Of a DNA stretch of 25,716 nt, positions 400 to 25,076 are shown piece after piece. The notes beneath the pieces are model-generated. The model was not told where the DNA came from. It saw nothing but the letters and a program-made list of their open reading frames with translations, and ran no database searches. How positions within the stretch are numbered: the first letter of the stretch is position 1; the number at the start of each line of letters is the position of its first letter. The DNA is from Lobulomyces angularis (lineage: Eukaryota; Chytridiomycota; Chytridiomycetes; Lobulomycetales; Lobulomycetaceae), in contig JADHYX010000326.1 in the NCBI GenBank assembly GCA_027604685.1, forward strand, positions 1-25,716, read 5' to 3'. A program made the translations under genes and the position numbers.

Positions 400-2690
400 T
401 TAACTTTTTTCTGTACTTTTTCCATCCAACATCTCTAAAACTGCTTCGTTTACATAAGGATTTCCTAATCCTTCAGTTTTTCCATCTTTTTCTATAATTT
501 TTGGTATCTAACAGAAAGTTAAAGAAAAAAAGGCTTAGTGAAAAATAATAATAAAATAACTTATACTTTAAAAGGCAGCTCTCGTTTCACAATAAATTCT
601 GCTACATCTTCAACATTTTCTTCTTCATCACATTCAATGGAATTTTTTTTTTCTATTGAATGTTCCTTCATGCCTTTCACTACACCATCCACATATGCCC
701 TAACTTCCTCAGGAATGGAAACTTCCCCGACTTCATACAGATAATTGTCAATAACTAATTTAACTTGGCATAAATTTAATTTTGTTACACTCTTCAAATT
801 TTCCAAAAATCCTTGTAAATCAGTGCAGCTACTTATTCCTTGCAAAAACTGTAATAGTTGAAATGTTGTATCCAAATGTTTAATAAAATTTTCAGCAGTT
901 TCTTCAGAAAATGTTTCCTTTATAAATTCTTCTATCAAACTAAAGTTGACTCTTATCTGGACCCCTTTTGTCCGACAGCAATACATATTGCTTTTTATGA
1001 TTGTGTTAAATGTGTCACAACCAATAGTAAAAAATATTTGGTTAAATATTTGTTCAATTATTCTACTGTCAACTTTCATTTGAATCAAGACTTTGTAAGC
1101 ACTTGTAAGTATACTAATTACAGTTATTGGCGCAACCTTGTATGTTGAGGCACTGCTGGTATTTGGAATTTGTATTTGCCTTGTAGAACTTAATATGCTT
1201 TTTAAAAAACTGCCAGTTCTATTGTAACTAAAAAAAAAAAAAAAAAATATAAAAATTTTTTTAATTAAAAAATTACCCATCTAATATTCCTTCAAATTTG
1301 ACGTTAACTTCAACACTAGAGTAATCTAAAATGCTAGCCTCTAATATATCTCCAATTCTTTTTTCCACATCTTTAATAAAAACGATGGATAGTTCCTGTA
1401 TCAATTCAGTTAGGGTAAACTGTAAGTCAAATGTAGAACATAAGAGGCCCTGATCTTTTTTTAAATAAAATAATAATTGTGAAGAGTTGAAAATCCAATA
1501 TGATATAAAATTTAAATCATCGCGAGCAGGCTTTTTTTGTAAAAAAACAAAAAAAGAATAAAAATAAATAAATCGTAAGAGATTTAAAATCACTGTTTTT
1601 ATTTTTTACTTGAATAGCTTGAATGATTTCTTTAATTGCAGAATTAAAAAACAGTGTCATTAACTCCTTCGAATTATAATAGTGGGCATATCTTAAACAC
1701 AGAAATAATATATTAGCAGAAATTGGCTTTTGATTTTCTGAGGATTTAACAGAGGGTCTCATCTGATGAATAGCAACTTTAAGAATATGTGGTATAGCAC
1801 TTTCTTCAAAAACAAACATTTGATCCCAATTACACTTTTCCCAAATAAAGGGTATAACTTCTTCCTCTGGAACTGCAGAATCAATCTTTAATTCTTCCTC
1901 CAAAACTTCAAAAGATACATCATTTATATCAGTTTCTTCACCATCGTCCAAAGAACTAATGAACCAAAAATTAATTGAATTTTTTTTTTTTTTTGATAAA
2001 AATAATATTCAATACTAATTATCTGTTGAGGTGGCGGAGATTTCATCAAAATTAAAGGAATCCACGGTTAATATTAGATCAGACATATGTTTAGACTGTC
2101 GCGCTAAATCTTTTAACGACCTTCCGCGATTACTTTTTGCTTGTCGTGATGCACCTGCATCCAATAGTAACTTTGCCTGTAATTAAAAATAAAAATAAAA
2201 AATTAATAAATAAAAAAATATTTTTAAAATTTAAAAATTCACAGTTTCTTCATGTCCGTTTGCAACAGCCCAAAACAAACCTAGTAAAAACAGAGAAGTG
2301 GTAATTTTAATTTAAAAGTTGTAGTTTTAAATAAGTTAATATTTTACCGGTCCATCCTCGCTTATCCTTGGCATCCAACATGGCATTTTTTTGAATTAAC
2401 AAAGATACGACGAGTGAATGACCAAAGGCAGCTCCTAACATTAAACTAGTCATGCCATCATCGTCCTTACAATTAATATCCACAATATCACTAAATGAAG
2501 AAGTGATTTTGTCTACTCTGGTTATGTCATTATTGGAGCTAGCTCTGAGTAGTAGAGAATTGAGATTTTTTTTCTTTTCTTCAACGGTCAACTTTTTGTT
2601 GTTGAAAATATCATCTTCATTTAAAGGCAAGTACTCTGCGGAGTTGAATGCAGACGAAAGAGCAGACTTTGGCAGCTTTTCTTCAGTCAT
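400..2690 (-). CDS. Ankyrin-repeat and DIL (dilute) domain protein, 7 exons, 636 aa
   Basis: Inferred exons: 2690-2348, 2280-2243, 2176-2016, 1955-1610, 1530-1277, 1227-567, 507-400 (1911 nt). Residues about 70-160 carry ankyrin repeats: a DGMTSLMLGAAFGH unit, then an RGWTGLFWAVANGHEE unit and LLLDAGAS, continuous only across the first two introns. From about residue 220 the protein matches the DIL domain of class V myosin tails: ISANILFLCLRYAHYY, ISYWIFNSSQLLFYL and the diagnostic KGVQIRVNFSLIEEF at about 468-482. There is no motor, so it is not a myosin. Fungal proteins pairing ankyrin repeats with a DIL domain are known; cargo or vesicle binding is the usual guess for the fold, and the role here is inferred. 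The acidic start and ordinary C-terminus (LDGKSTEKS) suggest a complete gene. The UAG met when exon 3 is read unspliced lies at the intron 3 donor. Confidence 0.85.
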
Positions 2691-2861
2691 TTTCTGATAT
2701 AATATTAATCTTTTGTTATATACTTTATTATTCTTTCAAATAAAGCCTTTTTCTTAAAAAAGATCTCCGTCCAACCTTTAAGGACGGAACTCTTACTTTC
2801 ATTAACAAAAGATGATGTTTTTCTATATAAAAATTAAATGAAGTTCTTAATGGCAGCAAGA
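2691..2861. promoter_or_regulatory. Upstream region of the ankyrin-DIL gene, with a short hairpin
   Basis: This 171-base gap separates the minus-strand start at 2690 from the plus-strand orphan ORF. It includes a perfect 7-bp inverted repeat at 2766-2788 (TCCGTCC, 9-base loop, GGACGGA), which stands out because the surroundings are G+C poor. ATG triplets at 2812 and 2848 open only short plus-strand frames that close before or in another frame from the 2959 ORF. No promoter motif could be assigned. Confidence 0.4.
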
Positions 2862-3306
2862 GGGAGCTTTTCCTTCAAACGAGGAAATACAAAAAACTTA
2901 CACTATAACAGATAACTTTAGAATCAAACTTTCTCAAATTGGAACACAACTGGCTACTTTGGAAATTGTAAATGAACAGAGTGAGGTTATTCAATATCCT
3001 CACGGATTCAGAATTCATGATGATCTGTATAACGAAGATGTTCAAATGGCTAATGGGGTTTGCGTTATCATTTCGAATGCCAGTTATAAAGTATCAGTCA
3101 ATAACGTACCTCGTGCTCGTTTATTCAATCAAAGACAAGTAGCTGTATTTAAAGCTCGTGTTAATCCCGATGGAGTAGTAATAGCTGATGAACCGGCTAC
3201 AGAGGAACCAAATATTGAAGTGAGTTGGAAATCTTCAACTTTAGAATATAGTTTAAACCAGTTTATGAGGTTTACTAGGATAATAAATACTTTTCCTCGA
3301 ATTTAA
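2862..3306 (+). CDS. Orphan open frame without an ATG start; possible exon or decayed gene
   Basis: The frame is open from a TAA just before 2862 to a TAA at 3304-3306, about 147 codons, with no in-frame ATG near its start. Its first methionine is in VQMANG, well inside. The protein looks genuinely coding: mixed composition, few homopolymers and visibly more G+C than its flanks. It includes ITDNFRIKLSQIGTQLATLE, PHGFRIHDDLYNEDV, VPRARLFNQRQVAVFKARV and the C-terminal FMRFTRIINTFPRI. An ATG at 2848 is in another frame and stops at about 2923-2925. A frame open from about 2712 could join through an AG at about 2864, but no credible start was found. I do not recognise the family. It could be a last exon, a frameshifted pseudogene or a captured mobile or foreign sequence; nothing seen decides between these. 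Confidence 0.4.
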
Positions 3307-22036: not shown

Positions 22037-22913
22037 ATGAATTTAGCAGAAGTAGAAAAAATTTGCAGTTTTTTAAAAGTCCCTAGAGGACATCAAATGG
22101 ATTTTAAATATCAAATATATTTTTTATTAAAAAGATTAAGAGTTTCTTTTTTATTGGATTTTTTTATTAATTTTGACAAACTTGTAAGTTTTCTTCAACA
22201 TTTTAAAAATGAACTTTGTATTGTAAAAATTTCAACGTCACATACTTTTATTTGCAATAGAGTCCTGTTGGAAAAAAAAATTTTTGAATTTTGTTTTTCT
22301 GAATACGTTTTTATTAATGTCTCAGGTTATTTTAAACTACCTGTGGTAAAAAATAAATTTCAATGATAATATTTAAAATAAAAAAAAATTTACAAAAAGC
22401 TATGTGATGAAAAGCAGAAACTAGAAACAATAAAAAACATCAAAAGTTTTTTAGAAAATTTTACCATAATAAATGGTTTAACAAAAGTTGAACTACCACA
22501 GCATTTAACCCATTTATTAATAACGATTACTGGTTGGCTCTTAGAGTACTGCTGCTTATATGTATTAACAGAAGATGCGGGTGGTGTGGTTTCTGATAAA
22601 AATTGTCTGTCAAATTTAACTTTAAATCTTTATACTGTAATTTACCAAAGGTAAACTATTTATACCAATCCGTTCCTTTTTATTTTTAATTTTTTAATTA
22701 TTTTTTTCACTTTCTTTAATCAGTTTAGAACTTGAAGATGTTAAAGTATTAAGTTTTAGTGCTCCAAATAATATTATCGGCGACTACTGTGAAAAGATTG
22801 AAGCTTATAAAAGTAGGATATGCTTAAAAAAACTGAATGGCGCGCTTAATGATAAAGAATCGTTAATCCTAAAAGTAGAAGAAGTTTGTATGTTTTCAAA
22901 AGTGTTATTGTAG
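22037..22913 (+). CDS. Small conserved-looking protein, tentatively C1orf74/UPF0739 (DUF4504) family, 3 exons, 249 aa
   Basis: Inferred exons: 22037-22345, 22400-22650, 22724-22913 (750 nt). The product is hydrophobic/aromatic-rich with no signal peptide and no obvious membrane helix. It begins MNLAEVEKICSFLKVPRGHQ, followed by an LLDFFINFDKLVSFL segment, an ICNRVLLEKKIFEFCF segment, a central GWLLEYCCLYVLTED, then NCLSNLTLNLYTVIYQS across intron 2. The pattern of a GWLLxYxxxY motif followed by a Cys-Leu-Ser-Asn segment, with a length near 250-270 residues, reminds me of the eukaryotic C1orf74 family, whose function is unknown. This rests on recall of a family pattern and is weak. Intron 1 is accepted because reading through meets a UGA just past the GTAAAA donor. 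An additional intron starting at the GTAAGT near 22183 is possible but not needed. Confidence 0.45.
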
Positions 22914-23030: not shown

Positions 23031-25076
23031 ATGGAAAATGATCCAGAAAAGTTACAAGAGATGCTGTTGGAAGCATACAAACTAATCAAGGAAAAAGATC
23101 AAGATTTGGGTTGGGCTGCTCAAGTACAAACCAAAGCAAAAATAAATTAAAATTATAAAGAAATGTTTTTAATTAAAACAACATAAAATTTTAAGATAGG
23201 TCAAGATTTGTTAACGAAAAATGAAAATTTAGAAAAGGAATTAAAAATTTTGACACAAAAGTTGAATGAGACTAGTGAAAAAAAAAAACTTGAATCTAAG
23301 GTGGATGGAGATAACACTTTAGATTTTAACGGTTTGGAGAAGGCGCTGGAACAAAACCAACACAAAAGACTGGAAAGCCTAACTGAACTGGAGATATCTT
23401 CGTTAGAATCAAGTTTAGAATCATTACAAAAAGAAAACAACGAATTAAAAGAAGAAATTTCGAAGCTGAATGAAAACAAAAAAGAAATTGAAAAGAACTT
23501 AATAAAGTCTACACAGGATTTTGAGCTAATAAAGGACGAAGTTCAAAAGTTCCAAAGAATGGCTGAACAACTAGAAGAAGAAAAAAAAAATTTGTTGAAG
23601 GAAAAGATTGACTTGAATAAAATATTAAAAGAAAAAAAAAATTCTACTGACGAAGCAACGGAAGCACTGGCTAGAATAGTACAGGAAATGGAGGAAAAAT
23701 TATTTACTATGGAAAGAGAAAACGACGAGTTGAACAAATTTAAACACAATTTTGAATACGATTTGAACGATAGTAAAAAAAAGTGCATAGAGTTGGAAAA
23801 TATTTTAGAGGAATACAGAGATTACAGGATGAAATACGAACAAAGTCAGGGAATAATTGTGGAAATGGAGGGAGATTTAGAGATTCTTCGAAATTATACT
23901 GAATCTTTGAAGGCCATGTTGGCAGTTTTTGAGCCTAATAAAGATGGAAAGTCGGATGTTGGTGGAAAAAGCTTATTGGGAGAGTAAGTTCAATTATATT
24001 AACAAATTAATTAATAAAAAGATTATTAAAAATAATTATAAAGAGTAGAGGATAGAAGAATGGAACTGGAAGGGGAAAATGAAATTTTAGCAAAAAATAA
24101 CGCTCGACTTAAGCACAACAATATGCTTAGTTTAAACGAAAGGTCAAAAATGAAACTTCACATCCAGACCCTAACCCTTCAACAAGCACAGAGTAGTTTC
24201 AACTATTCTGGCCTTAAACCATTGCAAGCAGCATTAAGTCAAGCAGAAAGCGAAAAAAAGCAATTACTGGACAATATTAAGGAATTGGATACAAAATTGG
24301 TGCAGTTAACATTGAGCAGTCATCAAAATTTCAACAATATCCATGAGTTTAGTAGAGATGAAGTGATTGAATGTTTGAGAATAAAGTTGGAACAGGTTTC
24401 TGGTGAAGCCACATCTTTAAGAAAGGAATTAAGAACTGCTTTAATGCTAAAACTCAGTGAAACTGAAAAGTTGAGAAATGCAGAATCAGTTTTAAGGTGT
24501 TCATAGAATTCATTTGTTTTTTTTATTAATTCTATCAATCACCTCTTCATTATTAGATTAGAATCGGAAAATCTAGAGTTAAGCAAAAGACAAATCAATC
24601 AATTAAAATTTCAAATAGAGGAAGAAAAGAACAAGAATAAGTACCAAAGTGTTGAATTAAAAGCAAACAAACAAACTTCAACTGAAGATTTGCTAAATAC
24701 CAACTGCCTTAAGAAAATAGTCACTTCAACTACTATTAGAAAAATGAGTGAAGAATTGAAGAATTCCTCGAAGGCCACTCCTAACGCAGGAACCAGCACT
24801 TCAAATGCTCTGTTAAACAGAGTAAAAAATGAAAATGAAAAAATAAAGTTGAAGGTGGAAAAAAAACCTGAGCTGCCGCTCAGTGAAGAAGAAAAAAAAA
24901 CAACAAATAAGGAAAATCTAATAACAGAAAATGAAGAAAAAGGAAAATACTTAAAAATAAAAGAAAAAAAAACATTAGAAAAAAAAAATAATGAATTAAA
25001 TAATTTGGAAGAAAATAATTCAACAACATTAACTTTGGACAGAAATAATATGAATGAAAATTGTAATCAACAATAA
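23031..25076 (+). CDS. SPDL1: Spindly homologue: kinetochore dynein-dynactin adaptor with C-terminal CaaX-like CNQQ, 4 exons, 617 aa
   Basis: Inferred exons: 23031-23123, 23196-23983, 24044-24496, 24557-25076 (1854 nt). Spindly links dynein-dynactin to the RZZ complex at the kinetochore corona. What is seen: a short N-terminal helix; AAQIG at 29-33, formed across intron 1, matching the CC1-box AAxxG of dynein adaptors; a long coiled coil to about 290; SLLGEVEDRR at 290-299, formed across intron 2, matching the Spindly motif (animals have Phe where Leu292 stands); KMKLHIQTLTLQQ at about 329-341; IECLRIKLEQ with further coiled coil to about 475; and a low-complexity Lys/Glu/Asn tail ending ENCNQQ. 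The terminal Cys614-Asn-Gln-Gln corresponds to the farnesylated CPQQ of human Spindly. Length (617 against 605 in human) and motif order agree. BICD-type adaptors share the first two motifs but not the CaaX end. Confidence 0.87.

Follow-up and report, generated by a model that had tools for sequence, protein, structure and literature searches.

A four-exon gene for a coiled-coil protein

The window analyzed here is one whole contig of Lobulomyces angularis (C326), 25,716 nucleotides in length, and the genome searched comprised 20.76 Mb in 533 contigs. Four predicted exons on the forward strand (23031-25076) translate without a stop into a coiled-coil protein of 617 residues (Table 1). Retention of any one of the three introns introduces in-frame stops. 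The frame is also open with alternative GT-AG pairs; 21 pairs, counting the three chosen, were listed across the introns. We preferred the chosen set because it yields a public protein of 617 residues and because a relative from another fungal phylum, described below and denoted P0002, aligns without gaps at the splice junctions of the first two introns. The gap-free alignment at both junctions supports the splicing of these two introns. The public protein, HK099_007286 (P0001), was retrieved in a protein database search with 100% identity and 100% coverage, and is annotated as a hypothetical protein of Clydaea vesicula, a chytrid of the Lobulomycetales (Chytridiomycota). This narrows the 'fungus-grade' placement given in the sequence-only reading. 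The Spindly-like gene is probably single copy, since P0002, used as the query against the entire genome, matched no other locus with an E of 0.01 or lower.

Spindly is a lipid-bearing adaptor that recruits dynein to chromosomes in dividing animal cells. The sequence-only reading had described three signatures of animal Spindly in the correct order in this protein, two of them formed only by splicing. The spliced translation confirmed AAQIG, SLLGEVEDRR, and the terminal CNQQ in that order. The two motifs created by splicing are AAQIG and the Spindly motif, and CNQQ lies within one open exon.

Table 1 Features of the Spindly-like gene in the window.
Feature	Position	Strand	Content	Basis or remark
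Exon 1	23031..23123	+	Residues 1-31, opening part of CC1 box	Matches public HK099_007286
Exon 2	23196..23983	+	Residues 32-293 and part of 294; coiled coil CC1	Matches HK099_007286
Exon 3	24044..24496	+	Rest of Spindly motif, CC2, CC3	Matches HK099_007286; P0002 match (six-frame genome search)
Exon 4	24557..25076	+	CC3 end, disordered tail, CNQQ, stop TAA	Matches HK099_007286; AlphaFold2 model
Intron 1	23124..23195	+	72 nt, GT-AG	Translation, splice-pair listing
Intron 2	23984..24043	+	60 nt, GTAAGT donor	Translation, splice-pair listing
Intron 3	24497..24556	+	60 nt, GT-AG	Translation, splice-pair listing
CC1 box AAQIG	23115..23201	+	Residues 29-33	Interrupted by intron 23124-23195
Spindly motif SLLGEVEDRR	23970..24059	+	Residues 290-299	Interrupted by intron 23984-24043
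C-terminal CNQQ	25062..25073	+	Candidate farnesylation motif	CAQQ in P0002

The gene located just upstream (22037-22913, + strand, joined by hand) matched DUF4504 (PF14953), a family of unknown function, at 5e-8. The open frames scanned between 561 and 21211 resemble housekeeping genes, including those for a DIL-domain protein, UBC, an AAA ATPase, a pseudouridine synthase, Utp14, an RRM protein, a protein kinase, and a DEAD-box helicase. The open frame at 2851-3306 gave a Staygreen match only, below the cut-off.

The same motifs in a second fungal phylum

Homology searches that scored 7995, 7993, and 62 candidates, respectively, returned a single relative other than the protein itself. This relative, P0002, is the hypothetical protein BKA69DRAFT_1036091 of Paraphysoderma sedebokerense (Blastocladiomycota), which matched at E 6.1e-29 with 30% identity over 74%. 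Animal Spindly was found neither among the returns of these searches nor among the PDB matches. P0002 has a longer tail (760 residues in total versus 617) and contains AAEIG, TLFSEVEDRR, and a terminal CAQQ in the same order as in the chytrid protein. Pfam PF28219 is listed by the protein database for both HK099_007286 and P0002.

When the two proteins were compared in windows of 30 residues, identity was raised at the CC1 box (17/30, residues 16-45), at the Spindly motif (16/30, 271-300), and in window 421-450 (16/30), and was only 3-8/30 per window from 46-75 through 241-270. The tail was poorly conserved, with 2-8/30 identical residues per window over 496-615, yet the C-x-Q-Q end was kept.

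We compared the motifs with 20,000 composition-preserving shuffles of the 617-residue protein. AAxxG appeared in 390 shuffles and a cysteine at position -4 in 103, while a loose form of the Spindly motif (L, aliphatic or aromatic, any residue, E, aliphatic or aromatic) appeared in 15,017 and therefore means little alone. In the scan of the protein itself, LLGEV at 291-295 was the only loose-motif match listed. The frequency of the loose motif, and the large proportion of low-complexity coiled coil in the sequence, would suit an unrelated coiled-coil protein carrying the motifs by chance. However, the extended motif L[LF]xE[VIL]E[DE]RR was present in none of the 20,000 shuffles, and all three features recur, in the same order, in a second fungal phylum. 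We rejected chance as the source of the motifs based on the shuffles and the P0002 match, and consider it extremely improbable. The P0002 match is the stronger evidence, outweighing any shuffle statistic.

Comparison with other dynein adaptors

The CC1 box of the protein aligns with AAEIG of P0002 and also with the CC1 boxes of BICDR1 and TRAK2. As the CC1 box is common to other adaptors, it is not diagnostic of Spindly. The protein might instead belong with the BICDR or HAP1/TRAK adaptors, as a fungal member that links dynein to vesicle or mitochondrial cargo and carries a generic CC1 box and LxxE motif. The best solved structures for its N-terminus were TRAK2 (0.049) and BICDR1 (0.54), and those for the N-terminus of P0002 were BICDR1 (6.2e-5), followed by BICD2 and TRAK2. 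HAP1_N was the best Pfam family for both proteins (5.6e-4 for the 617-residue protein and 5.9e-7 for P0002), and in the protein database P0002 is annotated with HAP1_N (PF04849.19). BICDR1, BICD2, and the TRAK/HAP1 adaptors have the CC1 box in common with the 617-residue protein, and differ from Spindly in their cargo.

Against such an adaptor, HAP1_N version 18 scored below its cut-off of 33.9 bits in both proteins (19.6 bits for the 617-residue protein and 29.4 bits for P0002). The six-frame genome search gave no HAP1_N match over the cut-off. The BicD domain was absent from the Pfam matches of the protein, and the BicD model matched neither this genome nor the control genomes. A SLLSEIE stretch is present in the BICDR1 chain too, but without the EVEDRR-type continuation seen in the 617-residue protein. 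An adaptor of this kind would leave unexplained the EVEDRR stretch common with P0002, the CxQQ end, and the presence in the genome of ROD and Zwilch. According to van Hooff et al. 2017, the phylogenetic profiles of these two proteins correlate with that of Spindly (r 0.730 and 0.804; PMC5579357). Membership in the BICDR, TRAK, or BICD families was rejected as less likely based on the HAP1_N score below the cut-off and the lack of a BicD domain match, and we consider this alternative very unlikely.

Predicted architecture

To compare the protein with Spindly, we used an AlphaFold2 model built from a two-sequence alignment, which has modest confidence (mean pLDDT 61.8, pTM 0.22). Helices were predicted at residues 5-66, 75-178, 184-274, 291-341, 348-391, and 398-482, with a short helix at 504-516. 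A break at 275-290 is located directly ahead of the Spindly motif, gaps at 342-347 and 392-397 fall, at the same modest confidence, in the CC2/CC3 region, and pLDDT in the tail is below 50 from residue 478. Human Spindly has been described with an interruption of CC1 at ~155, a break just before the Spindly motif (~256), a loop at ~360 separating CC2 from CC3, and a tail of low confidence at 440-605 (PMC9481740). The order of these elements is the same in the chytrid model, where positions 179-183, 290, 392-397, and 478 sit 24 to 43 residues later. An interruption of CC1 is not expected in BICD1/2. The model is non-helical at 179-183, but it is non-helical at 67-74 too, with block pLDDT of ~68-74 near 179-183 and only two sequences in the alignment. 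The gaps at 67-74 and 342-347 are without counterpart in the description of human Spindly consulted (PMC9481740). With modest confidence, the model shows the layout of human Spindly. With the coiled-coil model as the query, Foldseek gave 77 matches with E up to 10, none of which reached 0.001.

Like animal Spindly (human SPDL1), the protein has an N-terminal CC1 box (AAXXG), a Spindly motif preceded by a break in the coiled coil, CC2/CC3, a disordered tail, and a C-x-Q-Q end. Unlike human SPDL1, it ends in CNQQ rather than CPQQ, its Spindly motif lies at 290 rather than at about 256-258, and its tail is rich in lysine, glutamate, and asparagine. Our literature search found no paper spelling out the human Spindly motif.

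Partner genes in the same genome

As expected for an animal-type Spindly, genes for ROD, Zwilch, ZW10, and farnesyltransferase were found in the same genome. The gene models of ROD, Zwilch, and ZW10 (RZZ) and of the CENP-E-type kinesin described below are exon pieces or open frames joined by hand. ROD spans ~8 kb on contig C21, where the joined frames exceeded the Pfam cut-offs for KNTC1_N (2.7e-16), Rod_C (9.7e-20), and the first, second, and third ARM_KNTC1 domains, and matched the ROD chain of the RZZ structure 7qpg at 1.2e-6. Zwilch, on C287, scored 23.5 and 22.6 bits exon by exon against a cut-off of 25 bits, and passed it with the open frames joined (42.7 bits, 3.4e-11). It matched chains of 7qpg at 5.5e-5 and the Zwilch chain of 3if8 at 6.3e-6. 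Zwilch residues Glu422/Asp426 are reported to be needed for corona expansion (PMC10711656), and their equivalents fell outside the aligned stretches of the structure-chain comparison. The C-terminal domain of ZW10 was found on C74 (ZW10_C, 1.9e-8, over the cut-off). ZW10_C2 was below the cut-off in the joined frames, and the ZW10 N-terminal model had no match in this genome or in any control genome.

The farnesyltransferase beta subunit was identified on C94 (1.5e-43, 152 bits, versus 63 bits or less for geranylgeranyltransferase chains) and the alpha subunit on C313 (2.9e-21). On the dynein side, contig C85 encodes the dynein light intermediate chain (9.0e-18), and dynactin p62 (7.7e-14) is represented by its first quarter only, at one end of contig C349. 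The check that the sequence-only reading had proposed was thus positive, with ROD, ZW10, Zwilch, and both farnesyltransferase subunits recognizable in the genome, although for ZW10 the N-terminal part gave nothing and Zwilch passes only when joined.

Based on the motifs, the P0002 match, and these partner genes, the 617-residue protein is very probably a Spindly orthologue. Of what the sequence-only reading had proposed for it, orthology is now well supported and prenylation stays a prediction. Binding, kinetochore localization, and corona formation we infer by analogy with animal Spindly.

The C-terminal CNQQ

Human Spindly ends in CPQQ, for which a farnesyl-dependent interaction has been proposed and which is predicted to be 'shunted' (PMC9231725). 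We take 'shunted' to mean prenylated with no further processing, and infer the same fate for CNQQ. A true Spindly could also carry an unfarnesylated CNQQ and bind RZZ independently of a lipid. CNQQ is without aliphatic residues, and a Drosophila Spindly orthologue is without a CAAX box according to Wu et al. 2023 (PMC10630089). However, the human end for which farnesyl dependence was proposed is of the same C-x-Q-Q type (PMC9231725), and farnesylation is reported to greatly enhance the interaction of human Spindly with RZZ (PMC10711656). The C-x-Q-Q end is also kept in P0002 despite the poorly conserved tail preceding it, and the farnesyltransferase subunits are present in the same genome. An unfarnesylated end is therefore unlikely in our view, and farnesylation of CNQQ is likely. 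Our literature search brought up no study in which farnesyltransferase had been assayed on CNQQ.

A CENP-E-type kinesin with a candidate C-x-Q-Q end

We surveyed the kinesins of the genome, which gave 85 exon-level matches, and scanned 30 of the loci with a signature. At one locus (C41, 49000-58900, minus strand), the joined motor frames best matched CENP-E in the PDB (5.2e-59), and the best structure other than CENP-E was OSM-3 (5.9e-52). For the single frame at the motor end, OSM-3 and other kinesins matched better than CENP-E. The motor is followed by several kb of lysine/glutamate-rich open frames. The most plausible last intron has 58 nt and a GTATAT donor, and the exon after it would end in CAQQ. 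Of the 43 open GT-AG joins listed for this end, four give CAQQ and the rest other ends, so the CAQQ end is a prediction only. This CENP-E candidate, whose predicted C-x-Q-Q tag matches that of the Spindly-like protein, is the most useful addition of the present analysis. A second kinesin (C345, 21000-23950, + strand) has a similar motor-domain end and a shorter tail, and is possibly another kinesin-7.

A possible farnesyl-dependent corona in chytrids

By transfer from animal Spindly, the chytrid protein would dimerize via its coiled coil. With features as described for Spindly elsewhere (PMC9481740, PMC10711656), the CC1 box would bind the dynein light intermediate chain and the Spindly motif the pointed end of dynactin. 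The farnesylated C-terminal cysteine would anchor the protein to ROD-Zwilch-ZW10 on unattached kinetochores. There Spindly would activate dynein and could join corona assembly together with farnesylated CENP-E. It is possible, and we suggest it only tentatively, that chytrids build an animal-like, farnesyl-dependent corona in which the CNQQ of Spindly and the predicted CAQQ of the CENP-E-type kinesin share a lipid tag.

The sequence-only reading had held that a Spindly copy in this genome would place the farnesylated system before the split of animals and fungi. This agrees with published work, but is not new. Rod, Zwilch, and Spindly were named as a module by van Hooff et al. 2017, who considered Spindly to be probably post-LECA (PMC5579357). 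Wu et al. 2023, who cite van Hooff et al. for the distribution of RZZ-Spindly, found all RZZ-Spindly members co-present only in fungi and animals, inferred an origin of Spindly at the base of Obazoa, and concluded that CENP-E and Spindly had acquired their CAAX boxes in the opisthokont ancestor at the latest (PMC10630089). An age of the farnesylated Spindly system preceding the animal-fungal split is thus already in print, and the present gene agrees with it. Among the papers listed by our literature searches, none was recognizable from its title or the start of its abstract as dealing with a chytrid Spindly.

What this analysis adds is one chytrid gene, so far annotated as hypothetical, together with its partner genes and the CENP-E candidate with its predicted C-x-Q-Q end. 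With it, the published inference of a farnesylated corona of opisthokont age becomes testable in a fungus, and transformation has been reported for the chytrid Spizellomyces punctatus (PMC7213984). If chytrids do build such a corona, the vertebrate corona would be an ancestral opisthokont structure that yeasts have lost, and the idea could be tested in a chytrid.
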